The notes below the pieces were generated by a model, which was not told where the DNA came from, did no database searches, and worked only from the letters and a program-made list of their open reading frames with translations. Source: Cryobacterium levicorallinum (GTDB lineage: Bacteria; Actinomycetota; Actinomycetes; Actinomycetales; Microbacteriaceae). Taken from it: DNA of 64,000 bases. Below, piece after piece: positions 18,255-53,143 of the stretch; the stretch's first letter is position 1, and the number at the start of each line of letters is the position of its first letter. The stretch is taken from assembly GCF_004402405.1 (NCBI RefSeq), contig NZ_SOFE01000036.1, positions 1-64,000 of the forward strand. Direction: 5' to 3'. The position numbers and the translations under genes were made by a program.

Positions 18255-18758
18255 CTACAGCGTCGTGGTCCAATCGAGGTTGATTTTCTGTTTGATGTAG
18301 ATGTTCTCGCCGAGTCCGGGCACGGAGGGATTCATGGTGAGCAATAGCTGCACCGGGATATTGAATCGCTGGGCAATATCGAAGAATGCGTCACCTTCGA
18401 TGACCGTGTAGGTGAGCAGCGCGCCGGCACCATCGGACATCGTGGTGCCGCGCGCGCCGGGTGTGCTGCCGAGGTCGACGGCCGGCCCCTGGGGCAGCGG
18501 CACGGGTTCCGCGTTCGGCACGAGATCGGGTACTTCCGGGTTGGGAATCAATGCCGCTTCCTCCGTGGGTGTCGGAGTGGGCGTGGGCGTCGGGGTGGGC
18601 GTCGGCGAAGGCGTCGGTGCGACGCTCGGCGTGATGGTCACCGTCACCGCGGGTGCTGGTTCACCGGCGCAGCCGACCAGCGCAACGAGCAGGAGGGCAG
18701 CGACGGCGATGCCCGGGGGGCGACGTGCGAAAACGGTGCGAATGGTGGAACCCTTCAA
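18255..18758 (-). CDS. LysM-domain lipoprotein
   Basis: This protein of about 167 residues has a lipoprotein signal with lipobox LVGC (Cys about residue 30), a Pro/Thr repeat spacer (PTPTPTPT), and a single C-terminal LysM domain (TYTVIEGDAFFDIAQRFNIP...LLTMNP). LysM binds peptidoglycan, so the protein probably bridges membrane and wall. The only in-frame start before the signal is TTG 18758; no convincing ribosome binding site precedes it, so the start is uncertain. Confidence 0.8.
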   Translation of the reverse strand: MKGSTIRTVFARRPPGIAVAALLLVALVGCAGEPAPAVTVTITPSVAPTPSPTPTPTPTPTPTPTEEAALIPNPEVPDLVPNAEPVPLPQGPAVDLGSTPGARGTTMSDGAGALLTYTVIEGDAFFDIAQRFNIPVQLLLTMNPSVPGLGENIYIKQKINLDWTTTL

Positions 18759-18904
18759 AGAAAGACGGTGCGGCCCGGCCGAGCCACGCGTTCAGCCAGC
18801 TTAGGGGGAGACCGGTCCGGTCGGACAGGCAGTACTACCCCCATGTGGGGATCAGATCAGCACTCGATCACGTTGACCGCGAGGCCATCCTCGCTGGTTT
18901 CCTT

Positions 18905-20100
18905 TTACTTCGTCATCATGTCGAGTCCGGTTTGGCGCATGGTTTCGATCACGGTGTCGAGGGAGACCAGGTGTGTCCCATCGCCGTGGAGCGCCAGCCG
19001 GGCCGCCGATACGGCCGTGGACGAGGCGATGGCGTTGCGTTCGATGCAAGGTACCTGTACCAGGCCGCCGACCGGGTATCAGGTCAGTCCAAGGTGATGC
19101 TCCATCGCGATCTCGGCCGTATTTTCGACCTGGCGCGGTGTGCCGCCGAGCACGGCACAGAGCGCACCGGACGCCATGGCACACGCAGCTCCGACCTCGA
19201 CCTGGCAGCCGCCCCGTTGGTCGGCGCGGTGACACGCGGCCGCCGGCCGCATTCTCTTCGTTGACCGCGAGCGCGAAGGCGTGCAGCCACTTGGTCGAGG
19301 TGTCCTGGTCGTGTGCGGGCAGGCGGTCATATTCCTCTAAGCGCATACGTACCGCTGCGGCCCGACGCTTGACCTTGAGTCCGCCCGGCAGCGTGCCCTC
19401 GGCGACCAGGCCGGCTTCGACACAGACGTGCATGGCGTCCCAGATGGCGTCGAGTCCGGCATCGAATGCGGCGCTGCCATGGATGGCTCCTTCGTTGCGG
19501 CGCGCGACCTCGCAGATGCTGAGCTCGTGCGCGTCGCACAGCGCGAGCAATTCGGCACTGGACTCGAAGGGGAGCGGCTGCTGAGGAGCGGCCACGCGAA
19601 TCTGGTCGCCGTCGTGCCGAATAAAACCCCCCCCCGATGAAATAGTACGTCTCCTCGAACAGCGCCGTCGAGTCGTCGGTGCCAAACGGATCGGCTCCAA
19701 ACGCGGACAGGGTCAGCGCGTTCGGATGCCCGGGGAGCCGGGTATGCGGTTCGAAGTGCACATCACTCTGGAGGATCGGGATCGTGTGCCCGCCGAGCAG
19801 CGTGATGGTCGCGCCGGTGTCGAGGCCGGACCAGGCCGCGCGCACGTCACTCGGATCGCAGGTTTCGGGTCGAAGCCCCCGGAGGCCGGCCAGGACGGCG
19901 TCGGGAGTGCCGTGGCCGAGTCCGGTGGAACCGAGCGAGCCAAAGAGAGAACAGCGGATGCGGGTGACCTCGGCCAAGCGGCCGGTCGCGACCAGGTGTT
20001 CGGCGAACACGCGCGCAGCACGCAGCGGTCCCACCGTGTGGGAACTGGATGGACCCATGCCGATGGAGAAGAGGTCGAGAGCCGAGACGGACGCTGTCAC
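18905..20100 (-). pseudogene. sdaA: Decayed L-serine dehydratase (iron-sulfur type)
   Basis: The frame from GTG 20100 reads a normal N-terminus (SALDLFSIGMGPSSSHTVGPLRA). A run of nine C's at 19627-19635 (IGGGF motif) has one base too many, shifting the frame. Near 19234 a base is missing in the GRVVTAPTNG motif. About 48 codons between APTNGA and GCQ-EVG are deleted. The cluster cysteine in LTCDPVGG is TGA. The remainder ([14 protein letters not shown] to DMMTK) is readable to TAA 18905. Four independent lesions make this a pseudogene and not a sequencing artefact. Confidence 0.93.
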
Positions 20101-20188
20101 ACTCCCAAGATAAGTCTTTCGGCCGGGAAAGCCCCTTCGGGTCGCAGGCCGGATGCCAGCCACCGAAACGTGTGCGGCTTAAATACTC

Positions 20189-20244: not shown

Positions 20245-20823
20245 TTACGCGATCGTGAAGGTGATGGTCGCGATGTAAGGGTTGACGGTGACGCCATCAT
20301 CGCCGGCGTAATTGGAGCGGAAGGCGTTGGCCGGAACGGTCAGGTCGAACACCGGGGTCAAGGTGAAGGTGCCCTTGCCCGAGGTAGACGAGACCAGGGC
20401 CTGAGCCGTGCCGGACATTGTGACCGGCGCCGTAGTCGGAGCGGCGTCGGAGCCGGTGCCCGCGGTGACGGATCCGGGGGTGATCACGAGGTTGTTGGCG
20501 GCCAGCTCGCGCTCAACCGTGTCGACGGATCCCGCGGCGCTGGTGAAGGGGGTCACGCTGGCCGAGAGCGTCCAGGGGGCGGCGGTGCCGCGAGCGTTGA
20601 CGACCTTCCACTGCGGGGCCTGGCCGGTCGAGGTCTTGTTGGAGATGCCGTCGAGCATGACACTGGTCATCGAGTCGGGCGCACTGGCCGCGAAGCTCAG
20701 AGTTCCGGCGCTGACGGTGGCGTCAACGGTGTCGGTGTCGGCGGCGTAAGCGGGGGAGAGGGCCAGACCGAGCAGCACGCCGGTGGTAGTGGTGATGACG
20801 ATGCCTTTGATAAGAGCGTGCAT
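20245..20823 (-). CDS. WxL-domain-like surface protein
   Basis: This 192-residue secreted protein has a Sec signal ending AYA-AD (about residue 28). The rest is one WxL-like domain: a proximal APWTLSASVT motif (W-T-L) and a conserved tail NPYIATITFTIA that corresponds to the distal YxxTLTWTL motif of Firmicutes WxL domains with F for W. Such domains bind peptidoglycan and DUF916-type partners non-covalently. AGAGGA precedes ATG 20823; upstream in-frame codons are not part of the protein. It is the last gene of the minus-strand WxL locus, 227 bases after the DUF916 gene. Confidence 0.8.
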   Translation of the reverse strand: MHALIKGIVITTTTGVLLGLALSPAYAADTDTVDATVSAGTLSFAASAPDSMTSVMLDGISNKTSTGQAPQWKVVNARGTAAPWTLSASVTPFTSAAGSVDTVERELAANNLVITPGSVTAGTGSDAAPTTAPVTMSGTAQALVSSTSGKGTFTLTPVFDLTVPANAFRSNYAGDDGVTVNPYIATITFTIA

Positions 20824-21050: not shown

Positions 21051-22079
21051 CTACGCGCCCTGTTCGGCCCGGGCGACCTGGGCGATGGCCTGCCGGGCGC
21101 GTCGGATGAACCGCGTGGTGCGCCAGCTGGCGAAGGCCAGGAGCAGCGGGACAAGCACGGCGACGGCGATGATCCACCACGGCAGATAGACGAGGCTGGT
21201 GCTGACCGTTTCGGCGCCGGCATCGCTCTGCAGAGTGGCGCGCGCGGTGCCAGCTTGGATGAGCGGCAGCTCGGTGAGCACGGCTCGCAGCGTTAGCGTC
21301 GCCCCGGGCAGGATGCTTTCGGGGGTGTTGAAGCTGAGCGAGTCGTTCACCCCGATGGCGCTGTCAATCGACAGCTCCGTGACCGGGAAGAGAATCGTGT
21401 TGCCGGTATTCGTGATGGGCAGCGCAAAGGTGATCGAATCACCCGAGCGTTCCCAGCTCAGGTCTCCGTGAGCCAAGGTCGCCGAGGCCGTTCCGTCGAC
21501 GGTGAGGTAGATGCGCACCCCCTGACGCTGGATCACGTCGAGCCGCAGCGCTGCGTCACCGTTGCCCGTGGTTGTTTCGCCCTGCACCGGCGGACTTTGA
21601 ATGATCAGCCCGCCGGCGTAGTCGCCGGGGGTCGTGCCGACCGGAACGGTCAGTCGGAATGGTACGGCGAGATCGGAATTGGCGGGAACGGTGATTTCCT
21701 CAGCGTCGAGGGCGACCCAGGCGCCCACCCCCGCTCTCGTGTCGGCCTGCGCAGCGAGGGCGAAGGCGCCCTGGGGGGTGCTTTGACCGTCGACGGCATA
21801 GTTGAGTAACGTCACCGCAGCATCCGTGTAGTTACTAACGATCGCGGTCGCATCGATGGCCGCGCCGGGTGCGAGAACAATGTGAAAGAAATCCGACTCA
21901 AGCTGAGGACGGATGCCCAGGGTTCCGTCATCGATAGCCTGAGCAGACTGCGGCATGGCCAGGGCCAGACCAACCGGCGCAAGCAGGGCGGCGGCCAGCA
22001 GCACGACCAGGATGGTAAGGGGCCGGGCCGTTCGCTCGGTCCGACGGGTACGGGGGAGACGTCCAAACGTGGGAAGCAT
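21051..22079 (-). CDS. DUF916-type WxL-interacting membrane protein
   Basis: This 342-residue protein has a signal/TM segment (residues 20-45), an extracellular part with two Ig-like halves, and a C-terminal helix (WWIIAVAVLVPLLLAF) ending in a basic cytoplasmic tail. The pattern IRPQ-E-DFFHIVLAPGA...VSNYTD...VPFRLTVPVGTTPGDYAGGLIIQS is typical of the DUF916 peptidoglycan-binding domain that accompanies WxL proteins. It likely docks the neighbouring WxL proteins at the wall. ATG 22079 follows AAAGG by 8 bases. It sits between the ice-binding fusion and another WxL gene. Confidence 0.82.
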   Translation of the reverse strand: MLPTFGRLPRTRRTERTARPLTILVVLLAAALLAPVGLALAMPQSAQAIDDGTLGIRPQLESDFFHIVLAPGAAIDATAIVSNYTDAAVTLLNYAVDGQSTPQGAFALAAQADTRAGVGAWVALDAEEITVPANSDLAVPFRLTVPVGTTPGDYAGGLIIQSPPVQGETTTGNGDAALRLDVIQRQGVRIYLTVDGTASATLAHGDLSWERSGDSITFALPITNTGNTILFPVTELSIDSAIGVNDSLSFNTPESILPGATLTLRAVLTELPLIQAGTARATLQSDAGAETVSTSLVYLPWWIIAVAVLVPLLLAFASWRTTRFIRRARQAIAQVARAEQGA

Positions 22080-22150: not shown

Positions 22151-23338
22151 TTAGCTGATGGTGAAGGTGAGGGTCGTGACGTACGGGTTCACCGGGGAGG
22201 CGTTGATCTCGCCGGAAAAGTTGGACCGAAAGGCGTTCGGCGGAACAGCCAGGCTGAAGGACGGGGCCAACAGGTAGGTGCCCGGGTTGGATCCGACGGT
22301 CGAGAGCAGCACCTGCGGCGTACCCGACATGGTGAGGGGCCTGCCCACGATGCGCGCTGGGTTGGAGCCGTTCGGGCCCGCCGTGATCGGCCCGGGATCG
22401 ATCACCAGGCTGTCGATGGGCAGGGTGCGGGCGATCAATTCCGTGCTGCCCGGTGCACTCGTCGCCGCCGTAGCGGTCACCGTGAGCGTCCACGGGGCTC
22501 CGGTACCCCGATCGTCGACGATCAACCACTGCGGGCCGGAGCCGGTGGCATACTGTGTGCTCGTGCCGTTCAAGACGACCGCTGACAGTGCCGCGCCGCC
22601 GGTCGAGGCGGTCAGGGTGCCCAGTCGCAGGGGCGTGAGCGTAAAGATGTTCGAATCGAGAGTGACCGCTGCGGTCACGGCGAGGGCGCGACCGTCGAAC
22701 GTCGTGCCGGTCGTGACGGTGATCGACGCCAGGGCGAGGATCGTGCCGGCGAATGTCGAGTAGGTACCCATGGTCGCGGAGCTACCGACCTGCCAGAACA
22801 CGTTGGCCGCCTGCGCTCCGTTGACCAGACGCACCGAGCTGCCGGACGCCGTCGTGAGGGTCGAGCCGATCTGGAAGATGAAGACGGCGTTGGGATCATT
22901 GCCGGCGTCGAGTGTGACGCTTCCGGTGATGGCGAGGGTGCTGTTCGCGCGGTAGACCCCCGGCGTGAGGGTTGACGCGCCGATTTCGGGGGAGAGAATG
23001 GTCTGCGAGACGCGGCCGACGGCATCCGCATAGGCGCTTTCCAGGTCGGCGTGGGCCGCTCCGGCGTCGGCGCCAACCAAGATGAGGCCCCCCACTTGGC
23101 CCGCCGACATGCCCGTGACGGACGTGCCGGGGCTGACGCCGAGGTCGCCGCTCGTGGTCGTGTGGCCGGTGTTGGTAACCGTCGATGCACCGAGTACCGA
23201 GTAAGTCTGTGCCGCTCCGAGATCGAGCGGTGCCGGCGACGGAGCAGCCTGCGCCGGCAGCGTGGGGCCTCCGATCAGGGCGAGGGCGAGGCCGAGAACG
23301 GCCAGAATGCCGTGCAGTCGTGGCGCGTGCCTGGTCAT
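22151..23338 (-). CDS. Ice-binding protein (DUF3494) fused to a C-terminal WxL-like domain
   Basis: This 395-residue secreted protein has a signal ending AQA-AP (about residue 31). Residues 37-235 form a complete DUF3494 ice-binding beta-helix: YSVLGASTVTNTG, TSGDLGVSPGT, LTPGVY, AVFIFQIGSTLTTASGS, NVFWQVGSSATMGT and GRALAVTAAVTLD. Residues 236-395 are a WxL-like domain with GAPWTLTVTA and the tail NPYVTTLTFTIS. Ice binding is established for the first family; wall attachment through the second is inferred. It starts 3 bases after the previous WxL gene and precedes the DUF916 gene, so it is cotranscribed with its presumed anchor. Confidence 0.9.
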   Translation of the reverse strand: MTRHAPRLHGILAVLGLALALIGGPTLPAQAAPSPAPLDLGAAQTYSVLGASTVTNTGHTTTSGDLGVSPGTSVTGMSAGQVGGLILVGADAGAAHADLESAYADAVGRVSQTILSPEIGASTLTPGVYRANSTLAITGSVTLDAGNDPNAVFIFQIGSTLTTASGSSVRLVNGAQAANVFWQVGSSATMGTYSTFAGTILALASITVTTGTTFDGRALAVTAAVTLDSNIFTLTPLRLGTLTASTGGAALSAVVLNGTSTQYATGSGPQWLIVDDRGTGAPWTLTVTATAATSAPGSTELIARTLPIDSLVIDPGPITAGPNGSNPARIVGRPLTMSGTPQVLLSTVGSNPGTYLLAPSFSLAVPPNAFRSNFSGEINASPVNPYVTTLTFTIS

Positions 23339-23341
23339 GGG

Positions 23342-23953
23342 CTACGCCATTGTGAAGGTGATGGTCGACGCGTACGGGTGCACGCCGTCGACGCCGACGT
23401 TGGAACGAAAGGCAGTGGCGGGAATGGTCAGGTCGAACAATGGAGCCGACAGCACAAAGGAACCCTTGGCTCCCGTTGCGGAGGGTGGCGCCCAGACGAG
23501 CGCCTGGGCGAGGGTGGACATGGTGAGGGCGGACGTCTCGGGGGCGGTGTCAGCACCGCCGGTGGCGACCACGGTGCCGGGTGTGATGACGAGATTCGCA
23601 ACGCTGATCGTGCGCGGAACCAATTCGTCCGCCGAAGTTCCGGGGGCGCTCGTGAAGTCTGAGGCGGATGCCGACAAAGTCCAGCCGGCTCCCGACCCGC
23701 GAGCATCAATGATGGTCCAGGCCAGGGCGGTTCCGGTTGAGCGCTGCTCGCCGCTACGCAGCACGACGGACGACATATTGCTCGGCGCCGACACCGTGGA
23801 TTGGAGCCCACCTGAGGTGATCGTGAACTCCGCGGTATCGGCGGACTCGGCCGAGGCCGGCGGCGTGCCCAGGAATGACGCGCCGACGAGGCAGCCTCCA
23901 ACCAGCAGGCTGGTCAGCGTACCGGTGCCAATCCACGTAGTGCGTGTGTGCAA
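23342..23953 (-). CDS. WxL-domain-like surface protein
   Basis: This 203-residue protein has a signal peptide (cleavage near ASA-ES, residue 35) and one WxL-like domain with GAGWTLSASAS and the tail HPYASTITFTMA. It is closely similar in layout to the protein at 20245-20823 and to the C-terminal half of the ice-binding protein, so the three probably arose by duplication. It is the first gene of the locus, behind an AT-rich leader. No sortase motif is present, so attachment should be non-covalent. Confidence 0.8.
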   Translation of the reverse strand: MHTRTTWIGTGTLTSLLVGGCLVGASFLGTPPASAESADTAEFTITSGGLQSTVSAPSNMSSVVLRSGEQRSTGTALAWTIIDARGSGAGWTLSASASDFTSAPGTSADELVPRTISVANLVITPGTVVATGGADTAPETSALTMSTLAQALVWAPPSATGAKGSFVLSAPLFDLTIPATAFRSNVGVDGVHPYASTITFTMA

Positions 23954-24215: not shown

Positions 24216-25316
24216 CTAGTGCGTGCGGAACCGTGCGGTCATCGGGCAGTCGAACGGGTCACGAGCGGCCAGGCCGACCTTGTTGAGGTAAGCGATGACG
24301 ATGCCGTAGCTTTCGAAGACGCCGGTCTCGGTGTACTTCACGCCGTGCGACTGGCAGTATTCCTTGGCGATTTCCTGCGCCTTGCGCAGGTGCGGTCGGG
24401 CCATGTTCGGAAACAGGTGGTGCTCAATCTGGTAATTGAGCCCGCCCATATAGGTGTCGATGAAGGTGCCACCGCGAATATTGCGGCTGGTCAGCACCTG
24501 GCGGCGCAGAAAGTCGACCTTGCTTTCGGCCGGAAGCTGCGGCATCCCCTTGTGGTTGGGGGCAAAGGATGCACCCATGTAGACGCCGAACACGGCCATC
24601 TGCACGCCGACGAAGGCGAAGGCCATGCCGAGCGGCAGAAAGAAGAAGATGACGGCGAGGTAGAGCGAGATGCGGGTGACGAGCATCGTGATCTCGATCC
24701 AGCGCTGGTCGACCTTGTGCTTGCCGAAGACCGTCTTGAAGCCCTGAATGTGCAGGTTGATGCCTTCGAACATCAATAGCGGAAAGAAGAAGTAGCCCTG
24801 CTTGCGGGTGACGAGTGCGCCGAGGCGGCTGACCTTCTTGGCGTCTTCCTCGCGGAACACGATGAAGTCGGGCTCGATGTCGGGGTCCTTGCCGATGACG
24901 TTCGGGTTGGCGTGGTGCCGGCTGTGCTTGGTCATCCACCAGGCGTAGCTGATGCCGACGAACAGGTTGGCCAGGATGCGACCGGCTCGGTCGTTGGCTT
25001 TGCCGGAGGTGAACACGGCACGGTGTGAAGCTTCGTGCGCCAAGAAAGCGAACTGGGTGAAGATGAGGCCGAGGGCTGCGGCGATGATCAGCTGATACCA
25101 GGTGTCACCGAGCAGAACGAAACCGGCAATAGCGCCGCCCGTAGCGACGACGAGGATGGAGAACACCATCCAGTAGAAACCGGTGCGACGGCCGAGCAGG
25201 CCCAGATTGCGCACGGTGTGCAGGAGTGCGGAGTATTCGGTTGTGGGGTTCTTGGTGTCTCCACCCGGGCGGGTCCTGATGATGCGGACCGAGGGTGCGG
25301 CTAGTGCTTCCGACAT
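24216..25316 (-). CDS. Acyl-lipid fatty acid desaturase
   Basis: This 366-residue membrane di-iron enzyme introduces double bonds into membrane acyl chains. The three histidine boxes are present: HEASH (94-98), HSRHH (131-135) and QIEHH (296-300). The Q in the third box marks the front-end/linoleoyl-type subgroup; there is no fused cytochrome b5. Hydrophobic segments flank residues 50-90 and 210-250. Desaturases raise membrane fluidity in the cold, which fits the neighbouring ice-binding locus. A candidate -10 box lies about 120 bases upstream, leaving a long leader. Confidence 0.93.
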   Translation of the reverse strand: MSEALAAPSVRIIRTRPGGDTKNPTTEYSALLHTVRNLGLLGRRTGFYWMVFSILVVATGGAIAGFVLLGDTWYQLIIAAALGLIFTQFAFLAHEASHRAVFTSGKANDRAGRILANLFVGISYAWWMTKHSRHHANPNVIGKDPDIEPDFIVFREEDAKKVSRLGALVTRKQGYFFFPLLMFEGINLHIQGFKTVFGKHKVDQRWIEITMLVTRISLYLAVIFFFLPLGMAFAFVGVQMAVFGVYMGASFAPNHKGMPQLPAESKVDFLRRQVLTSRNIRGGTFIDTYMGGLNYQIEHHLFPNMARPHLRKAQEIAKEYCQSHGVKYTETGVFESYGIVIAYLNKVGLAARDPFDCPMTARFRTH

Positions 25317-25471: not shown

Positions 25472-27043
25472 CTATCGCCAACTTGGCATCCATATATGCA
25501 GTTGCCAAAACGAGAATGATGTCTGCATTCCGGTCCATACCGGTAAGAAAAACGCCGTGAGCAGCAGGGCGACGCCGAGTCCGACGATGACCGCCCGAAG
25601 AGCCCCAGGCTGCGGTTGGGGGTCGTATTCCGGTACCTGCGAATGTGCTGAATGCTTGCGTTTGGGCTGCGCCTGGTCGGGAATTTGCTTCAGTACCAGG
25701 CCAATGACGAAGGTGAGTCCGAGCAGCAGGTACGGTTCGAAGGCGATCGTATAAAACTGAAAAACCGTGCGGTTGAGATACATCAACCACGGTAGGTAGC
25801 CGGCGACCATGCCCATCAATATGAAACCGACCCGCCATTCCCGATACCGAGCCAGCCGGTAGACGAGGTAGAACAGCGCTGCCGTCGCCGCCCACCAGAT
25901 GAGGGGGTTACCGACCGATGTGATGGCCTCAGAGCAGCTCTGCAGCTGGCAGCCGGGTTCACCCGAGCTGGAACCGCGGTAGTACATGCTGGTCGGTCGG
26001 GTCATGAACAGCCAGGTCAACGGGTTTGCCTGGTACGGATGCGGTGTCGCGAGCCCCACGTGATAGGTGTACGCAGCCGCCTGGTAGTGCCAGAAGCTCT
26101 GCAGGGTATGCGGAACCCAGGCGAGCGGACCGGTCCAGGCGGCCCCTGCCCCGTCGGCCCCGGTCGAATCGGCCCATTGGCGGTAGTACCCACCGCGCGT
26201 GACAAACCACCCGGTCCAGGAAACCAGGAACGTCATGACGGCAATCGGAACCAGCAGCAGAAACGTGACCGGGGCCTGTTTGAGGATGGCGGCGCTGAGC
26301 CAGAATGACACGCCATTACGGCGCCGGGCCAGCGCATCCACGACGACGAGGTAGATGCCGAACGCGGCGAGAAAATAGACGCCGGACCATTTCACCGAGC
26401 TGGCCAGACCGAAGGCGAGGCCGGCGGCGAGCAGCCAGGGCCGCCACCACAGCGCCGGACCCCAGCCCTGCTCGCGGAGCCCGGCCAGTCGGCTGGCCAG
26501 TCGAGTCGCGTGCCACTCGCGGTCCAGCAAGATTGCCCCGAAACCGAGCAAGGCGAAGAACATCACGAAGTTGTCGAGCAGCGCCACGCGGCTCATGACG
26601 ATGGCGTGACCGTCGATCGCGAGCAGAAAACCGGTGATCAGGGCGAGCAAGCGGGACTGAAACAGCTTCTGCGCCACGAGCATGATGAGCACGACCGCGA
26701 GCACCCCCACCAAGACCGTCGCCAGCCGCCAGCCCCACGGGTTGCCGGGGCCGAGCAAATTCATGCCGAGCCCGATGAGCCATTTTCCGAGCGGTGGATG
26801 CACGACAAAGGACGGGTCGGTTGTGAATATGTCGGTGTGGCCCGCCTCGAACTGAACGTTGGCGTCTGCCGGCCAGGTGGACTCGTAGCCGTTATTGAAC
26901 AGGCTCCAGGCGTCCTTGACATAGAACGTCTCGTCGAAGACGAGCGCGTGCGGCACACCGAGGTTCCACAGCCGTAGCACCGCGGCCAGGAGGACCACTG
27001 CGAGGGGAGCGCCCCAGCGAACCCATCGACTAGTAGCGAGCAC
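25472..27043 (-). CDS. pmt: Protein O-mannosyltransferase (dolichyl/polyprenyl-phosphate-mannose:protein, Pmt family)
   Basis: This protein of about 523 residues is a multi-helix GT-C glycosyltransferase that mannosylates secreted proteins. VFDETFYVKDAW (with the acidic DE of loop 1), the second acidic motif near DPSFVVHPPLGKWLIGLG, and the closing LHIWMPSW are typical of actinobacterial Pmt. Many secreted Thr/Ser/Pro-rich proteins in this window are plausible substrates. I take GTG 27043 as the start because it gives a compact N-terminus before helix 1; in-frame ATGs at 27106 and 27112 would overlap the divergent rsmI start. The start is uncertain. Confidence 0.88.
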   Translation of the reverse strand: MLATSRWVRWGAPLAVVLLAAVLRLWNLGVPHALVFDETFYVKDAWSLFNNGYESTWPADANVQFEAGHTDIFTTDPSFVVHPPLGKWLIGLGMNLLGPGNPWGWRLATVLVGVLAVVLIMLVAQKLFQSRLLALITGFLLAIDGHAIVMSRVALLDNFVMFFALLGFGAILLDREWHATRLASRLAGLREQGWGPALWWRPWLLAAGLAFGLASSVKWSGVYFLAAFGIYLVVVDALARRRNGVSFWLSAAILKQAPVTFLLLVPIAVMTFLVSWTGWFVTRGGYYRQWADSTGADGAGAAWTGPLAWVPHTLQSFWHYQAAAYTYHVGLATPHPYQANPLTWLFMTRPTSMYYRGSSSGEPGCQLQSCSEAITSVGNPLIWWAATAALFYLVYRLARYREWRVGFILMGMVAGYLPWLMYLNRTVFQFYTIAFEPYLLLGLTFVIGLVLKQIPDQAQPKRKHSAHSQVPEYDPQPQPGALRAVIVGLGVALLLTAFFLPVWTGMQTSFSFWQLHIWMPSWR

Positions 27044-27104
27044 GTGACCATCGTACAGAGGGACCGAAGAACGGATGCTCGGCTGGTGCTGCGAGAATTG
27101 CAGC

Positions 27105-27977
27105 ATGATCATTCTTGCTGCCACCCCGATCGGAAACCTCGGCGACGCCTCCCGGCGCCTGATCGAGACCCTGAGCACCATCACCATCGTGGCGGCCGAA
27201 GACACCCGCGTCACCGTTCACCTGCTCAAGGCCCTCGGCATCGAGAATCGGCCCAGACTCATTGCCCTGCATGATCACAACGAACGCGGCAAGGCCGCCG
27301 AACTGGTCGAACTGGCTCGCGACACGGACATTCTCGTACTCAGCGACGCCGGCATGCCCACCGTCTCTGATCCCGGCTTTCATTTAGTGGATGCCGCGGT
27401 CGCCGCCGGCGTGCAGGTCACCGCCCTGCCCGGCCCGTCCGCCGTGCTGACCGCCCTCGCCGTGTCCGGGCTGCCGACCGACCGGTTCACGTTCGAGGGG
27501 TTCCTGCCGCGCAAACACGGCGAGCGGGTCAAACTGCTGCGCGATCTCAGCGCTGAACGCCGCACTATGGTCTTCTTCGAATCGCCCAATCGCCTGGCGG
27601 ACTCGCTGCTCGACCTCGCCGCAACGCTCGGCCCTGACCGCCGCGTCGTGGTCTGTCGCGAGCTGACCAAATTTTTTGAGGAGGTCAAGCGCGGCACGGC
27701 AAGCGAACTGGCCGAGTGGGCGGCAGCGGGGGTGCGTGGCGAGATCTGTATCGTCGTTGCCGGTGCGGAAGTGCGGGTGCTGGACCTGGCCATGGGCGTG
27801 GCCGAGGTGCTGGATTTGGTGGCTGGCGGCATCCGCTTGAAAGAAGCTGCGGCCGACGTGTCCGCGGCCAGCGGACTTGGCAAGCGTGAACTGTACGAGC
27901 ACGCGCTGCAGGCCAAGGCCGGCCCGGGAAAACCTGCCGTAAAAAAACCGGAATACCCGAGTCCTCTTCAGCGTTAG
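27105..27977 (+). CDS. rsmI: 16S rRNA (cytidine-1402 2'-O) methyltransferase RsmI
   Basis: This 290-residue SAM-dependent methyltransferase of the tetrapyrrole-methylase fold modifies C1402 in the 16S decoding centre. Motifs: ILAATPIGNLGDAS at the N-terminus, AAEDTRVT, SDAGMPTVSDPG and PGPSAVLTALAVSGL. The C-terminal extension (VLDLVAGGIRLKEAA) is the usual RsmI tail. ATG 27105 begins right at the first beta strand. It is divergent from pmt, and the short spacer must hold both promoters. Confidence 0.96.
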   Translation: MIILAATPIGNLGDASRRLIETLSTITIVAAEDTRVTVHLLKALGIENRPRLIALHDHNERGKAAELVELARDTDILVLSDAGMPTVSDPGFHLVDAAVAAGVQVTALPGPSAVLTALAVSGLPTDRFTFEGFLPRKHGERVKLLRDLSAERRTMVFFESPNRLADSLLDLAATLGPDRRVVVCRELTKFFEEVKRGTASELAEWAAAGVRGEICIVVAGAEVRVLDLAMGVAEVLDLVAGGIRLKEAAADVSAASGLGKRELYEHALQAKAGPGKPAVKKPEYPSPLQR

Positions 27978-47677: not shown

Positions 47678-48784
47678 GTGATTTCGAAGAGGACTATTGC
47701 ACTTTGCGCAACAGTCGGCGTTGTCGTTTCCGGCATCGTCATCTCCGCTCCGGCACACGCCGAGCCCGTTTCCAACAGCTACTCGATTGTCGGTTCCGAC
47801 ACCCTCGAAGACGTCGTCAACGCACTCGCCAACGGGACAGCCATCACAGGCTCGAGCGTTCGTTCCACGGTCAACAACACCACCATTGGTTCGTTTGACG
47901 CCACTGGTTCTCCTTACATCACCACAAAATCTTCCGGAGTAAGGTTCGGCCGACCCAACGGTTCCGGCGATGGCGTGAAGGCACTCAGCCGCTCGATTGA
48001 CGGTGCCGCGTATACGTCCGCCACGGTCGGGAGCCCTGCGAGCGTGGTCATCACCGGTCAGGTGGATATTGCCCGCTCATCCAGTGGTGGCACGGCCAAC
48101 GCCGCGGGAGAACTGCTGTACGTTCCGTTCGGCCGCGATGCCATCGCCTACGCCTACAAGGGTTCGGCAACCGGCATCGAAACTTTGACGGCATCACAAA
48201 TGAAGAGCCTCTACGAGTGCTCTGCTGGCTTCCAGATCGGTGGCGTAACCGTCACGCCGATCATCCCGCAGGCTGGCTCGGGCACCCGCAAGGACTTCCT
48301 GAACAAGATCGGCTCCACCGAAACCCTGATGAAGACGATCAGCGAAGCTGGCTGTGTCGTCGAAGACCAGGAGCACGACGCGACGAACCTCACGGCCGAG
48401 TCGGTCATGCCCATGGCTGTTTCCCGTTGGATCGCCATGAACACCGGCGCCAGCTACGACAAGCGCGGTACCGGCACCCTCGGCTCTCTCGTCGCCGGAG
48501 TCGTTCCGGTGACCGGAACCGGATCGTCCATGGTTCCGAACGCTCCCTACTACGCCGACACCACCTGGGGTCGCGACACCTATCTGGTCGTGGAGAATGC
48601 TCGGGTTGACCCGGCAAGCGCCAAGTTCGACGCCGGCCTCGCCACGCTGATGGACTCCGCCGTATCGAGTGCTCTGACCAATTCCTCGCCCGTGGTGTCG
48701 CGTTCGGGAGCAGTGAAGAAGAAGTATGGCTTCCTAGCGCCCACCGCAGGTGTCGTCGCATTCCGCGTTGCCAAGACCGCTTAA
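47678..48784 (+). CDS. Secreted PstS-like substrate-binding protein
   Basis: This 368-residue protein has a Sec signal (cleavage near AHA-EP) and no lipobox or C-terminal anchor. SIVGSDTLEDVVNALANG corresponds to the first ligand loop of PstS-like proteins, and IIPQAGSGTRKDFL to the second. VPFGRDAIAYAYKG is the hinge motif. It is therefore a third PstS-fold protein in the same operon, and may act in the wall space between the surface and PstS. AAAGG lies 7 bases before GTG 47678. Confidence 0.85.
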   Translation: MISKRTIALCATVGVVVSGIVISAPAHAEPVSNSYSIVGSDTLEDVVNALANGTAITGSSVRSTVNNTTIGSFDATGSPYITTKSSGVRFGRPNGSGDGVKALSRSIDGAAYTSATVGSPASVVITGQVDIARSSSGGTANAAGELLYVPFGRDAIAYAYKGSATGIETLTASQMKSLYECSAGFQIGGVTVTPIIPQAGSGTRKDFLNKIGSTETLMKTISEAGCVVEDQEHDATNLTAESVMPMAVSRWIAMNTGASYDKRGTGTLGSLVAGVVPVTGTGSSMVPNAPYYADTTWGRDTYLVVENARVDPASAKFDAGLATLMDSAVSSALTNSSPVVSRSGAVKKKYGFLAPTAGVVAFRVAKTA

Positions 48785-48815
48785 TCCATTCCCCTAAGCA
48801 CTGGAAGGTTAAGAA

Positions 48816-49874
48816 ATGTACATGAATAAGAAAATGCGTATTGCAGCAGTCGGTTTCGTCTCCCTGGCCCTCGTGGCCGGTGCGACCGCGGTTGCCTCGG
48901 CCGCGGTCCAGCCGAATGGTTCTGACGCAGCGCTGTACAGCTATGACGCGAACATTGCCCTCGTTACCGATCCGTCGACGGTTTTCACCTGGACCGCCGA
49001 CAACTTTGGCTCGGGTAACAAGGTCTCCTACGATGCGCCGACAACCTGTCCGACAACGGCCGATGATGCCTACATCTTCGTGGCAACGGCCGGAAACGAA
49101 CGGACGAAGGCTGCGTGGAGCGCCTATGGCGATAGCGCATTTGCACCGGGAACCAAAGACGTGATCGCCGCAACCCTGACCCCCGGTGTTGCGCTGACCT
49201 CAGGTAACTACGGCACGGTCAAGTCCAACGGTGGAACGTACAGCCTCGGTATCGCGTGCACGAACAACAACGGCAACACCATCGTCGGAGCGTTTTACCG
49301 TACGGCATCCATCACCGCCGGCACCGGCTCCTACACGATGACCGCGGTGACGGAAGACACGACGACGCCGCCGCCCCCCGCCAACACCGACACTACCGGC
49401 AGCGTCGCGATGTCGCCCCAGACTGTCGGCGCCAACGACGGAGTGCTCAGCTTGATCGTTCCCGTCGGTGCCGCGGCTGTATTCGCCGCCCCAACCCTGG
49501 TCAACAACAAGTCGACCACGACCGGTACTTTAGGCAACGTGACCGTCGCCGACGGTCGTAGCGTCAGCCGTAAGGGTTGGGACCTGAATGCCAGCGTCAC
49601 CGACTTTGTCAACGCCAGTGACGCTACCAACACGATCAGCAAGGCTCAGCTCGGTCTGATACCGAAGATCGTCTCCTCCGAAGCGACCGGCGTGACCGCT
49701 GGTACCGCCCAGGTCGCCGGTTTGGCAACGTACTCGTCGCTCTTCGCGTCGGGCGCAGCGGCAAACACGGTGGGCAACACTGTGCTCAACGCCGACCTCA
49801 CGTTTGTGGCGCCAGCCAACAAAGCTGCGGGCACCTACGTCTCGACCCTCACCCTCACGGTCGTCTCGAAGTAA
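48816..49874 (+). CDS. WxL-domain-like surface protein of the pst operon
   Basis: This 352-residue protein has a signal ending ASA-AV, an N-terminal beta-rich domain with one Cys pair, a TTPPPPANTDTT linker, and a C-terminal WxL-like domain (about residues 195-352) with KGWDLNASVTDF and the tail GTYVSTLTLTVVSK, matching the proximal and distal WxL motifs. It should bind peptidoglycan and the DUF916 protein encoded next. GGAAGG lies 7 bases before ATG 48816. It starts 31 bases after the PstS-like gene. Confidence 0.8.
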   Translation: MYMNKKMRIAAVGFVSLALVAGATAVASAAVQPNGSDAALYSYDANIALVTDPSTVFTWTADNFGSGNKVSYDAPTTCPTTADDAYIFVATAGNERTKAAWSAYGDSAFAPGTKDVIAATLTPGVALTSGNYGTVKSNGGTYSLGIACTNNNGNTIVGAFYRTASITAGTGSYTMTAVTEDTTTPPPPANTDTTGSVAMSPQTVGANDGVLSLIVPVGAAAVFAAPTLVNNKSTTTGTLGNVTVADGRSVSRKGWDLNASVTDFVNASDATNTISKAQLGLIPKIVSSEATGVTAGTAQVAGLATYSSLFASGAAANTVGNTVLNADLTFVAPANKAAGTYVSTLTLTVVSK

Positions 49875-49981
49875 CGACTCCTCGGTAAAAGCAAGATCCC
49901 GATAGCAGGGGGAGAGGTGGTGGGGCGCCTCTTCCTTTGCTTTCACTTGTCGACATTTGTGCAGAAAAGAGAAAGTCCAGC

Positions 49982-51034
49982 GTGATGATCCATCGCCTTA
50001 TACGCCCTCTCGGTCTGTTGGCCGGAGCGCTCCTCATCATCGGATTGACCGTGGGAACGGGAGCGGTGCAAGCCATGAGCTCATCGGCAGCCGAGTCCGA
50101 CGGTATTGCGGGTGCCCCCTCAGCCGACGGTGGGGTCGACCAATCCCGCTCGCGCTACAGCTACCAGATGGATCCGGGACAGGCGGTCTCCGATGAGTAC
50201 CTGGTGCAGAACACCGGAACGACGGCCCAGTCTGTCACCGTCTACGCTACCGACGCCTTCAACGGGGATGACGGCGCCTTCTCGCTCTTAAACGGAGGCG
50301 TATCCCCGGTGGACGTCGGACGCTGGGTGACCTTTGCCAACGGCGCGGACCAGATCACAGCGACCTTGGAGCCCGGCGCGTCCCAGGTGATTCCCTTCAC
50401 CGTGACGACGCCCGCTGATGCCCGTCCCGGGGACCATGCCGGCGGCATAATTGTCTCCGCGCTGTCCCCATCCGGACAAATTTCGCTGGACCGACGGGTT
50501 GCCATTCGTCTCTACGTTCGCGTCAAGGGCGCACTTCAAGCGGGCCTGACCATTAGTAGCATTGCGTCGTCCTATCAGGCCGAATTGAATCCGTTTTCTG
50601 GCAAGACCCAGCTCACCGTGACGCTCAATAACACCGGCAATGTGGCGCTCGGTGCTACGACCGTGTCGCGAGTGCGCGGCATCTTCGGCATTCCGCTATC
50701 AGGAATCAGCCGGGAAGAAATTCCCGAGATGCTGCCCGGCAGCACGCGCACCCTGACCATGACCGTGCCAGGTGTTGGTTCGTGGATTTACCTCAATCCG
50801 CAGGTCAATCTTGCCGCAACGATCGACAAAGAAGCCATCAACCCCGGGGTGCTGCCCACCGCGAGTCGGGACACCGCCTTGATTGTCGTTCCGTGGGGCG
50901 CTCTCATCATCCTGTTGCTCACTGGCCTGATTTATTTCCTAGTGCGGTTCACTCGCCTCAGGGGCGCGCAACGTGCCGCCGCCTGGATCGAATACACCGA
51001 GGCCGAGGCGCGACGCCAGGCTCGGGGGGAGTGA
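49982..51034 (+). CDS. DUF916-type WxL-interacting membrane protein of the pst operon
   Basis: This 350-residue protein has an N-terminal signal/TM helix, RYSYQMDPGQAVSDEYLVQNTG...VIPFTVTTPADARPGDHAGGIIVSA (the DUF916 pattern), and a C-terminal helix (VVPWGALIILLLTGLIYFLVRF) with a charged cytoplasmic tail. It parallels the protein at 21051-22079. I take GTG 49982 as start; ATG 49985 is the next codon and equally possible. It likely holds the WxL protein at the wall. Confidence 0.8.
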   Translation: MMIHRLIRPLGLLAGALLIIGLTVGTGAVQAMSSSAAESDGIAGAPSADGGVDQSRSRYSYQMDPGQAVSDEYLVQNTGTTAQSVTVYATDAFNGDDGAFSLLNGGVSPVDVGRWVTFANGADQITATLEPGASQVIPFTVTTPADARPGDHAGGIIVSALSPSGQISLDRRVAIRLYVRVKGALQAGLTISSIASSYQAELNPFSGKTQLTVTLNNTGNVALGATTVSRVRGIFGIPLSGISREEIPEMLPGSTRTLTMTVPGVGSWIYLNPQVNLAATIDKEAINPGVLPTASRDTALIVVPWGALIILLLTGLIYFLVRFTRLRGAQRAAAWIEYTEAEARRQARGE

Positions 51035-51035
51035 C

Positions 51036-52130
51036 GTGACTGTGTCCAACCAACGCCGATCCCCAAGAATTCGACTCGTCGGTGTCCTTGCCCTTCTCGT
51101 TTTCTTGGGCTCAAGCACCGGAATATCGGGCGCCCAAGCCGCGAACGATGACAGCGGTATCGGCATTAGTGTTCCCGTCGTTGATTCGGCGACGGCGACA
51201 GAGCCGCAGTCCACTATCGCCCTGCCGTTTGGGTCGTCAGCGACGAACGCGCCGGTGGTCATCACCCTCACAGGCCTCAAGCCTTTCTCGTTTATAGAAA
51301 TTTTCGTCAACTCCACACCGGTCTTGCTCGCGAGCGGTCACGCTGATGCTGCCGGATCATTCACCGTTTCGGTGGCTCTGCCCGCCGGGCTGGAAACCGG
51401 TAATCACACCGTGTCGGTGACCGGAACGAGAGCAGACGGGACGGCAGCGGACTGGATCATTTCACAATTCCTGATCACTGCCGGTGGACTCCTGGCACAG
51501 CCGGAGACGCGCGCGGCACCCTCAGCGGCGTCCATAATCCCGTCAGTGAGGAGCATCACCAGCCCGTTAGTTGGCGTGACTGAAGTCGTGGCGAACACTC
51601 CGGCTGCCGCGGCCGATGCACTGGGTGAAGTCCCATTTGATTTGGGCGGCGTCTTCTACTTGAGCGGCTTGGTTGGCAGCGCAGCGTCGGTCGTTGGTCC
51701 CGAAGGTGGGGACATCACCCTCGCGTTCACGGCGAAGAATGTCACCTCGTGGCCGCTCAGCGCTGACTTGCGATTCTGGCTGGAGAACTCCGTTGGAATG
51801 GACGTTGCCCATCCCACCGACAGTCGCGTGATTGATCTGGAGCCGGGGCAAACGAAGACCGTCAGCATCACTCTGTCTGACGTTGGCCAGTGGGGCGTTC
51901 TCAACGCCCATATGACCTTCACTCCGCCAGATACCGTAAACGGAGCCGTGCTAACTCCGGTCACCCGCGACACCCTGGTGATCCTGCCCCCCTACTTCGT
52001 GATGCTTGTTGTGGGCATCCTTGGCGTACTTGTCTTCGCTGCACGCTTTTTATTGGCGTGGCAGCGGTCTCGTCGCCAGAATGCGCCGGCAATCGGTGCG
52101 TCTGAAGTCTCGGTCGAGGCCACAACATGA
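51036..52130 (+). CDS. Membrane-anchored Ig-like surface protein, unknown function
   Basis: This 364-residue protein has a signal peptide (cleavage near AQA-AN), a first beta-sandwich domain (residues 45-160, VITLTGLKPFSFIEIFVNSTPVLLAS), a second Ig-like domain (about 210-320, DITLAFTAKNVTSWPLSADLRFW...LEPGQTKTVSITL) and a C-terminal helix with a basic tail. The second part resembles DUF916-like or CARDB-type domains. GTG 51036 is preceded by GGGGGAG, 1 base after the previous stop, and the end overlaps the sortase-like gene. Confidence 0.72.
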   Translation: MTVSNQRRSPRIRLVGVLALLVFLGSSTGISGAQAANDDSGIGISVPVVDSATATEPQSTIALPFGSSATNAPVVITLTGLKPFSFIEIFVNSTPVLLASGHADAAGSFTVSVALPAGLETGNHTVSVTGTRADGTAADWIISQFLITAGGLLAQPETRAAPSAASIIPSVRSITSPLVGVTEVVANTPAAAADALGEVPFDLGGVFYLSGLVGSAASVVGPEGGDITLAFTAKNVTSWPLSADLRFWLENSVGMDVAHPTDSRVIDLEPGQTKTVSITLSDVGQWGVLNAHMTFTPPDTVNGAVLTPVTRDTLVILPPYFVMLVVGILGVLVFAARFLLAWQRSRRQNAPAIGASEVSVEATT

Positions 52131-53143
52131 TGAGTGCCAGGCGCAGCCTGCCGTCGACCCGACGCCTACTGCGGTCGATCCGCCCAGCACAGCCGCGCCA
52201 GCGGATTATGCCTCCACGTGGATGGAAGCCGGGTCAGACCCTTCCAACCAAACCGCCACTGTGGGCGGCGCCGGTGGCGAGCCCGCGGATCGTGCTGACC
52301 GCGCGAGAACGGCTCGTTCGGAGTTCCCTGGCCATGGTCGCCGCGCTTCTCTTCGGCTTTTTGGCGCAGGTGACCGTTGTTGGACAACTCCAACACCTCG
52401 TCGCTCAACAACAGCTCACCGACACATTTCGCCTCCAGCTGGCCGAGGGAACGGCCCCGGTCAGTGAGGGCACGGTCGAGAAGGTGCTGCTCGCCGATGG
52501 TGCCCCGGTTGCACTCATCGACATCCCGGCCCTTGACGTTCACGAAATCATCGTAGAGGGAACGGACTCGGGTACGACCCAAAACGGGCCGGGTCACCGC
52601 CGCGACACTGTGCTCCCCGGCCAAGCGGGAGTGAGCGTGGTGATGGGGCGTGCCGCAGCCTACGGTGCACCGTTCGCGCGCATTCAGGAGCTGCGACCCG
52701 GACAGAAATTCACCGTGCTGACCGGTCAGGGCAAGTCGACTTTCTCGGTCATCGGGGTTCGGTATGCCGGCGATCCGGCTCCGGCATCGCCCCGAGCTGA
52801 CCAGGGTCGTCTCATCCTGGAGACGGCTCGCGGTTTGGCCTTTGTGCCCAATGGCATTGCCAGGGTGGATGCCGAATTAGTCAGTACAACGCACCCTGCC
52901 GGTCAGCGCCAAACCACCTTTGCCACTCTCCGTCCGGCCGAGCGGGAACTTGCCAGTGACCTGTCTACGGTGTGGGCGCTGGCCTTTGCCCTGCAATTCT
53001 TTCTGCTGGTCGAATTTGCCGTGGTCTGGTCCATTCCTCGCGTTGGCGCACAGAAGACCTGGATCGTTTTCATCCCGGTGGGAGTGCTGAGCGGTCTGGT
53101 CGTCGCCGACCAGGTCGTCCGGCTGCTGCCCAACCTGCTCTAA
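52127..53143 (+). CDS. Sortase-fold protein without catalytic residues
   Basis: This 338-residue protein has an N-terminal cytosolic stretch (50 residues), a membrane helix (near 65-85), a sortase beta-barrel (about 120-260) and two C-terminal helices. The fold is marked by IDIPALDVHEIIVEGT, AYGAPFARIQELRPGQKF and GRLILETA. At the catalytic positions, the GHR histidine is R175 (VMGRAA), the TLxTC cysteine is A234 (LILETARG), and the arginine position appears displaced in GIARVDAEL. It cannot be a transpeptidase and probably serves as a binding scaffold. No LPxTG-type substrate is encoded nearby. Confidence 0.82.
   Translation: MMSARRSLPSTRRLLRSIRPAQPRQRIMPPRGWKPGQTLPTKPPLWAAPVASPRIVLTARERLVRSSLAMVAALLFGFLAQVTVVGQLQHLVAQQQLTDTFRLQLAEGTAPVSEGTVEKVLLADGAPVALIDIPALDVHEIIVEGTDSGTTQNGPGHRRDTVLPGQAGVSVVMGRAAAYGAPFARIQELRPGQKFTVLTGQGKSTFSVIGVRYAGDPAPASPRADQGRLILETARGLAFVPNGIARVDAELVSTTHPAGQRQTTFATLRPAERELASDLSTVWALAFALQFFLLVEFAVVWSIPRVGAQKTWIVFIPVGVLSGLVVADQVVRLLPNLL

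Follow-up and report, generated by a model that had tools for sequence, protein, structure and literature searches.

The locus examined here raises the question of why an ice-binding domain should be joined to a domain resembling one that binds the cell wall, and whether ice binding could be displayed at a bacterial surface in this way. The stretch analysed (the window) comprises 64,000 nucleotides of Cryobacterium levicorallinum DNA. A preliminary description had placed a complete DUF3494 domain and a WxL-like domain in one gene at 22151-23338, in an operon with two more WxL proteins and a DUF916 membrane partner. Both statements stood. An open reading frame occupies these positions, and PF11999 covers residues 48-231 of its product with 195.3 bits (E 1.2e-57; cut-off 28.7). 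Both small WxL proteins pass PF13731 (Table 1), and PF06030, the peptidoglycan-binding domain of WxLIP proteins, matches the DUF916 protein with 27.2 bits against a cut-off of 27.3. The fusion is a DUF3494 protein, and we consider it probable that it is a large WxL-type surface protein displaying a DUF3494 ice-binding head.

The fusion gene and its WxL-type cluster

All four cluster genes lie on the minus strand. The first small WxL gene is separated from the fusion by 3 bases, the fusion from the DUF916 gene by 71, and the DUF916 gene from the second small WxL gene by 227, lengths that depend on the assigned start codons. The starts of the DUF916 gene (22079) and of the second small WxL gene (about 20823) lie inside longer open frames, and the earlier picture of the operon is mended to that extent. 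A promoter and terminator scan found no sigma-70-like site on the minus strand and nothing else useful.

Table 1. Features of the fusion gene, its cluster and neighbouring genes in the 64-kb window
Feature	Positions	Strand	Details
Fusion gene: signal peptide, DUF3494 and WxL-like domain	22151..23338	-	395 aa; ATG at 23338, TAA at 22151
Signal peptide, residues 1-31	23246..23338	-	By eye from sequence; AQA/AP cleavage
Ice-binding beta-helix, residues 37-235	22634..23230	-	PF11999 and structural matches
Predicted ice face, T160/T162, S187/T189, S205/T207, A224/T226	22661..22861	-	Model strands, 5uyt alignment, published mutagenesis, row counts
WxL-like domain, residues 239-395	22154..22624	-	W283-T-L as first WxL motif; F-T-I in place of second
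Small WxL protein, cluster gene 1	23342..23953	-	203 aa, TTG start; PF13731 26.1 bits (cut-off 25)
WxLIP-type (DUF916) protein	21051..22079	-	342 aa; signal segment, two Ig-like domains, C-terminal membrane helix
Second small WxL protein, final cluster gene	20245..20823	-	192 aa from ATG at about 20823; PF13731 25.1 bits (cut-off 25)
Fatty acid desaturase	24216..25316	-	Neighbour, outside the mechanism; present in 57/57 genus genomes
LysM protein	18255..18758	-	Neighbour, outside the mechanism; adjoins the cluster in 16/16 genus fusion loci

The domain search suggested earlier gave a divided answer, with PF11999 above its cut-off and PF13731 below it. The WxL profile matched residues 241-301 of the fusion at 14.2 bits (15.4 for the domain alone; cut-off 25), so that "WxL-like" had been the right strength of wording. 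When branch domains were scanned singly, 24 of 26 reached E 0.1 or better, and the window's domain shares 40% and 47% identity with its two small WxL domains. The first WxL motif, W283-T-L in the window, is present in 50 of 55 domains. None of the 55 has W-x-L at the second place, where F-T-I is the usual sequence and one more residue completes the chain. Because the published definition requires two motifs (PMC9772566), we call the domain WxL-like, and with a score under the PF13731 cut-off and no second motif the fusion is not a WxL protein in the strict sense. The domain forms the C-terminus of the protein, whose gene is clustered with those of small WxL proteins and a WxLIP. By its sequence it belongs to a divergent WxL-like branch, and it likely functions like a WxL protein. 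A profile of the branch found no WxL chain among PDB sequences, returning one unrelated row up to E 10. In the structural comparison, the WxL-like part of the model scored no higher than Z 7.8 against pilins and sandwiches of that kind, which may reflect only a common arrangement. The long WxL chain of 9i25 is absent among the best 50 structural matches listed; as these are taken up by the beta-helix, the absence carries little weight.

The model of the partner protein has a pLDDT of 81.7 (57.5-69.7 for the other four models) and consists of two Ig-like domains (PGBD and HBD) followed by a C-terminal membrane helix. Among 980 aligned chains, the best match was 9i25_C, a WxLIP bound to a long WxL protein (Z 18.0, rmsd 5.0, 234 aligned), and the second best was another WxLIP, 9i1y_A (Z 17.0). 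Pilus chaperones came next, at Z 11.9 and below, and transglutaminases were among the other matches near Z 10. At the sequence level, the WxLIP-branch profile reached only E 0.13 against 9i25_C, and an alignment of 18 WxLIP proteins contained only a loose counterpart, DFFHIxLAPG, of the NQIDKxxxYFDLK-type sequence. Going by the model, the partner protein has WxLIP architecture. Its loop 162-184, which connects strands 152-161 and 185-194, is modelled with little certainty (block means 71, 59 and 83). A WxLIP hairpin that is unstructured when predicted alone completes the WxL sandwich in predicted complexes (PMC10599100), and by analogy the loop of the window's WxLIP may likewise complete the WxL-like sandwich.

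The cluster composition corresponds to that published for WxL clusters, namely a small WxL, a large WxL and a DUF916 protein (PMC9772566, PMC10599100). With the Firmicutes clusters represented by 9i25 and 9i1y, the window's cluster shares small WxL proteins, a large protein with a C-terminal WxL-type domain, and a two-Ig-domain WxLIP with a membrane helix. It differs in phylum, in the ice-binding head, in the missing second motif and in a large-protein WxL score below the Pfam cut-off.

The predicted ice face of the DUF3494 half

The predicted model of the fusion has a mean pLDDT of 84.7, with values of about 90 or more across most of residues 40-235, and consists of a beta-helix with a long flanking helix at residues 89-107. 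Model residues 30-240 (about 36-237) superposed on 25 solved ice-binding entries with Z of 31-35. The closest solved protein by sequence is 6eio, with 47% identity to the ice domain. Secreted single-domain DUF3494 proteins of this kind have the same fold and face, but unlike the fusion they have no wall-docking domain and no WxLIP cluster. The earlier remark that known ice-binding proteins usually are secreted free or held in other ways agrees with those parts of the literature cited here.

We picked the outward-facing residues from the model strands (Table 1) and compared them with IBPv (5uyt), in which A364, A391, A410 and G429 were mutated to Leu and bulkier residues on the ice site are reported to lower activity (PMC5673226). 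In domain 2 of 5uyt, the residues aligned with the first row of the window protein's face are Ala, Ala, Ala and Gly. In residue type and spacing this row fits the mutated IBPv positions, with the equation of numbering and register inferred. The active domain of IBPv has an Ala/Gly row beside a second row that is mainly Thr/Ser (PMC5673226). In the single-domain fusions, the first row was all small (A, G, S or T) in 3/3 and the second row was Thr at 12/12 places. Within tandem fusions, the first row was all small in 17/17 first and 16/17 third domains; second domains, with 7/16, carry bulky residues there more often. The corresponding counts were 9/34 for other ice domains of the genus and 20/26 for domains from other organisms. 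We dropped the notion that tandem copies had lost the ice face, which had come from their Ala-rich rows, since the active domain of IBPv itself has an Ala/Gly row.

Taken together, the model points to a flat ice face of small and Thr residues in the window protein. Since ice-site sequences vary widely among active proteins (PMC5673226), this pattern supports ice binding and does not prove it. A PF11999 match alone is no proof of activity either, because only 9 of the 34 other genus ice domains have an all-small first row. The commonest of these (L003-L026) have charged or bulky residues on the counted face, and may bind ice via another face or not at all.

A tree of 113 ice domains was built from domains covering at least 75% of the profile, after dropping L132, L136, L099 and L100 as repeats of L032, L033, L002 and L013. 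The three single forms clustered together (99/74), beside the tandem ones, a grouping that does not support a separate capture of the single-form ice domain.

Distribution, two forms and loss of the cluster

Using a profile (A1) of 19 fusion sequences, we searched 57 genomes of the genus. The same fusion, which the preliminary description had proposed to look for elsewhere, was found with a match over both domains as 17 proteins in 16 genomes (in G006, the match starts at profile position 18), and outside the genus in at least three more genomes among 299 of the family. Any PF11999 match was present in 46/57 genus genomes. In the family search, at least seven genomes carried the fusion: four of the genus together with G194 (Frigoribacterium sp. 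CG_9.8, locus L032), G251 (a Microbacteriaceae MAG, locus L033) and G334, a count made without longer partial matches such as G335 and G349. A search of 396 genomes of the phylum found the fusion in the window's genome only. Because only five or six candidates were scored per genome in the family and phylum searches, these counts are lower bounds. One partial match in the phylum search, G658 (profile positions 2-304), was rejected, as it has an ice domain and no WxL-like domain at E below 1. The 17 proteins in 16 genomes with matching neighbours rule out chance or misassembly as the origin of the fusion. Compared with that of G034, the window fusion gave a dN of 0.162 and a dS of 0.839 over 362 codons, and the fusion is under purifying selection.

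We identified the neighbours at the 15 other genus loci with phmmer, using the window proteins as queries and stop-to-stop frames, so that lengths are upper bounds. Three ice domains were present in 13 of the 17 genus fusions and two plus a fragment in G006, in frames of 713-1029 residues. The single-ice-domain form was found in three genomes (window, G034 and G025). Gene order differed between the forms: small WxL, WxLIP, fusion and small WxL in the tandem form, and small WxL, fusion, WxLIP and small WxL in the single form of the window and G034. G025 has both fusions within one cluster. The WxLIP gene adjoins the fusion in 16/16 genus loci and also in L032, L033 and L133. Two small WxL genes were found in 14/16 genus loci, the first being absent from the sequence read in G032 and G046. 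In 15/16 fusion loci the desaturase shares the contig and lies no more than about 5 kb away; G012 has it on a different contig. Three-domain fusions also occur beyond the genus, in L032 and L133 together with a small WxL and a WxLIP, and in L033 with a short WxLIP, where the sequence read contained no small WxL. WxLIP frames are shortened in G006 and G033 (300 and 311 aa), and some cluster copies may be decaying.

The desaturase is present in every genome of the genus and the LysM gene in 54/57. We chose six cluster-free candidates (G036, G028, G037, G015, G019 and G045) in which the two lie close together, and the window flanks aligned on both sides in all six. In G036, the closest by desaturase identity (98%), the flanks are 89-93% identical in matched pieces, and 307 bases of the last small WxL gene remain at 86% identity, with the rest of the cluster absent. 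A WxL fragment of 92 residues remains in G028 and perhaps one of 24 residues (E 0.0011) in G037; between the aligned flanks of G015, G019 and G045, no remnant was found. Among the six genomes compared, deletion has removed the cluster from at least two lineages, and it is hence dispensable. Along with the absent second WxL motif and the three ice domains of most relatives, this loss in close relatives had been missed in the preliminary description. The window genome has a single PF11999 match, and therefore one deletion should remove all DUF3494 activity. G036 has lost the fusion and has no PF11999 match in its genome, which provides a natural counterpart without DUF3494.

Proteins matching the window WxLIP profile were found in 80 of the 299 family genomes, and we scanned ten proteins, from loci around these genes and others, for other heads. 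The head is a peptidase M64 in L138 and L139 and an X-Pro dipeptidyl-peptidase in L143, and the C-terminal ends of these three scored 28.9 to 34.7 bits with the fusion-branch profile (Pfam WxL: 20.9 bits for L139, 21.8 bits for L143, none for L138). From these profile matches, the WxL-like anchor seems to serve different heads in Microbacteriaceae. L144, with a phosphatase head, was left uncounted because its end scores only 12.7 bits. A supposed unknown head on WxL proteins of G343 and G306 was also dropped; the signal peptide directly precedes the WxL domain, and these are small WxL proteins.

Proposed display at the wall and competing readings

The reading of the fusion as a wall-displayed ice-binding protein is built on domain matches, predicted structures, the residues of the face and the make-up of the cluster, together with its conservation and loss across genomes. 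Beyond these, we infer export, wall docking, ice binding and a benefit to the cell. The fusion would be exported by Sec and its signal peptide removed, and the C-terminal WxL-like domain would then dock on the wall, aided by the membrane-anchored WxLIP and the two small WxL proteins. By analogy with the WxL family, to which attachment of this kind belongs, docking would be non-covalent. The beta-helix would face outward, and its flat face of small residues and Thr could bind ice touching the cell, holding the cell at the ice and hindering ice regrowth against the envelope. We slightly favor short-range pinning and protection over adhesion at long reach, since the junction between the two domains is direct, about five residues in the model, with almost no linker and no stalk. 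Of the earlier interpretation, which predicted an ice adhesin or ice shield, sequence and predicted structure support the ice-binding half, the WxL-like half and the WxLIP partner. The most probable function is ice binding displayed at the wall, and the data do not separate adhesion from protection.

A true ice adhesin, with the cluster fixing cells on ice for a life in ice or snow as MpIBP does in Marinomonas primoryensis, is a serious possibility that we nevertheless find doubtful. Wall-type anchor and head are within one protein, the three tandem ice domains of most relatives would add reach and grip, and MpIBP is a proven case of bacterial ice adhesion by a surface ice-binding protein (PMC5014055). 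Against this stand the single ice domain and direct domain junction of the window form, as well as the little evidence for tethering among the ice-binding proteins surveyed in PMC9957290. It is improbable that the WxLIP serves only export or folding and that most of the fusion is released to the medium, as with ordinary secreted ice-binding proteins. The resemblance of the WxLIP model to pilus chaperones (Z about 10-12, after WxLIP itself) would fit such a role, and wall binding of the divergent WxL-like branch is unproven. However, the WxLIP model carries a C-terminal membrane helix, WxL domains are described as peptidoglycan-binding (PMC9772566, PMC10599100), and a 157-residue C-terminal domain would have been kept in 17/17 genus fusions without reason. 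Large WxL proteins often have adhesive heads, some of them beta-helical (PMC9772566), related genera place peptidases in the large-WxL slot, and the face is altered in many of the genus's ice domains, all of which would suit a beta-helix that binds a polymer or neighboring cells instead of ice. We give this little credence, as the window face retains the small and Thr rows of characterized relatives and the nearest solved protein is an ice-binding protein.

A bolder and rather unlikely extension of wall display is a Gram-positive-type ice adhesin apparatus. The WxLIP would be a membrane-tethered functional analogue of a pilus chaperone, whose domain 1 loop lends the strand completing the WxL-like sandwich and loads the ice head onto the wall, and a general display system of the family would here be turned to ice. 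In common with chaperone-usher pili are the pilus chaperones as next matches of the WxLIP model and the weak pilin matches of the WxL-like domain. In contrast, the window partner is membrane-anchored, the small WxL proteins have no pilin-like N-terminal extension by eye, and no usher is among the cluster's genes. A small-WxL fibre formed by strand exchange was set aside, as the mature N-termini have only about ten residues before the sandwich (by eye). The available text of PMC10599100 contained no match for chaperone or donor strand. The comparison of WxLIP with pilus chaperones may already be in print, as one review (PMC3796261) contains the terms WxL, donor strand and chaperone-usher. Our literature search found no paper on 9i25.

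SfIBP_1 of Shewanella frigidimarina has Ig-like extenders and reportedly has been proposed as an ice adhesin. Its DUF3494 domain (6bg8) was matched at Z 31.6, and it has no WxL system. MpIBP differs from the DUF3494/WxL type in ice-binding fold and secretion, and from the fusion in being Gram-negative, giant and equipped with a long extender. What it has in common with the fusion is an ice-binding domain at the cell surface, and in 2016 this RTX adhesin was described as the only one known to have evolved to bind ice (PMC5014055). IBPv has tandem ice domains with Ala/Gly and Thr/Ser rows, as in the tandem relatives, and is without a WxL-like domain (5uyt, PMC5673226). In the open literature, with preprints and most subscription papers outside this scope, we found no paper joining DUF3494 or ice binding with WxL. 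The word WxL is absent from the available text of a survey of 3,869 ice-binding proteins from the central Arctic Ocean (PMC9957290). Two DUF3494 proteins of 380-389 residues, whose other half resembles nothing known, have been described from Microbacteriaceae (PMC6518244). If displayed at the wall, the DUF3494 fusion would be a route to surface ice binding unrelated to MpIBP, and WxL systems, so far mainly associated with gut bacteria and host adhesion, would extend to ice.

Other layouts were seen in the genus. In G053 (L098, 3318-6889), a protein of 837 residues combines two PF11999 domains with two Ig-like ones (Big_13) and lies next to a protein weakly resembling WxLIP (38 bits); it is perhaps a second surface ice protein. 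In G051 (L097, 3268-5475), several Ig-like domains (Big_13, Big_6) come in a row after a single PF11999 domain, a stalk-like layout.

Elsewhere in the window, a run of plus-strand genes at 47678-53143 without an ice domain contains, besides a PBP-like gene and a sortase-domain gene (52127-53143), a second WxLIP-type gene (49937-51034; PF06030 29.7 bits, above the cut-off of 27.3). A minus-strand serine dehydratase (18855-20163), situated between the LysM gene and the cluster, is split across two reading frames, the beta part in one and a shortened alpha part in the other, and is apparently a decaying gene. A protein O-mannosyltransferase gene (25472-27214, minus strand) lies upstream of the desaturase, near a LysM protein with a long Thr-Pro repeat that is a possible glycosylation target.
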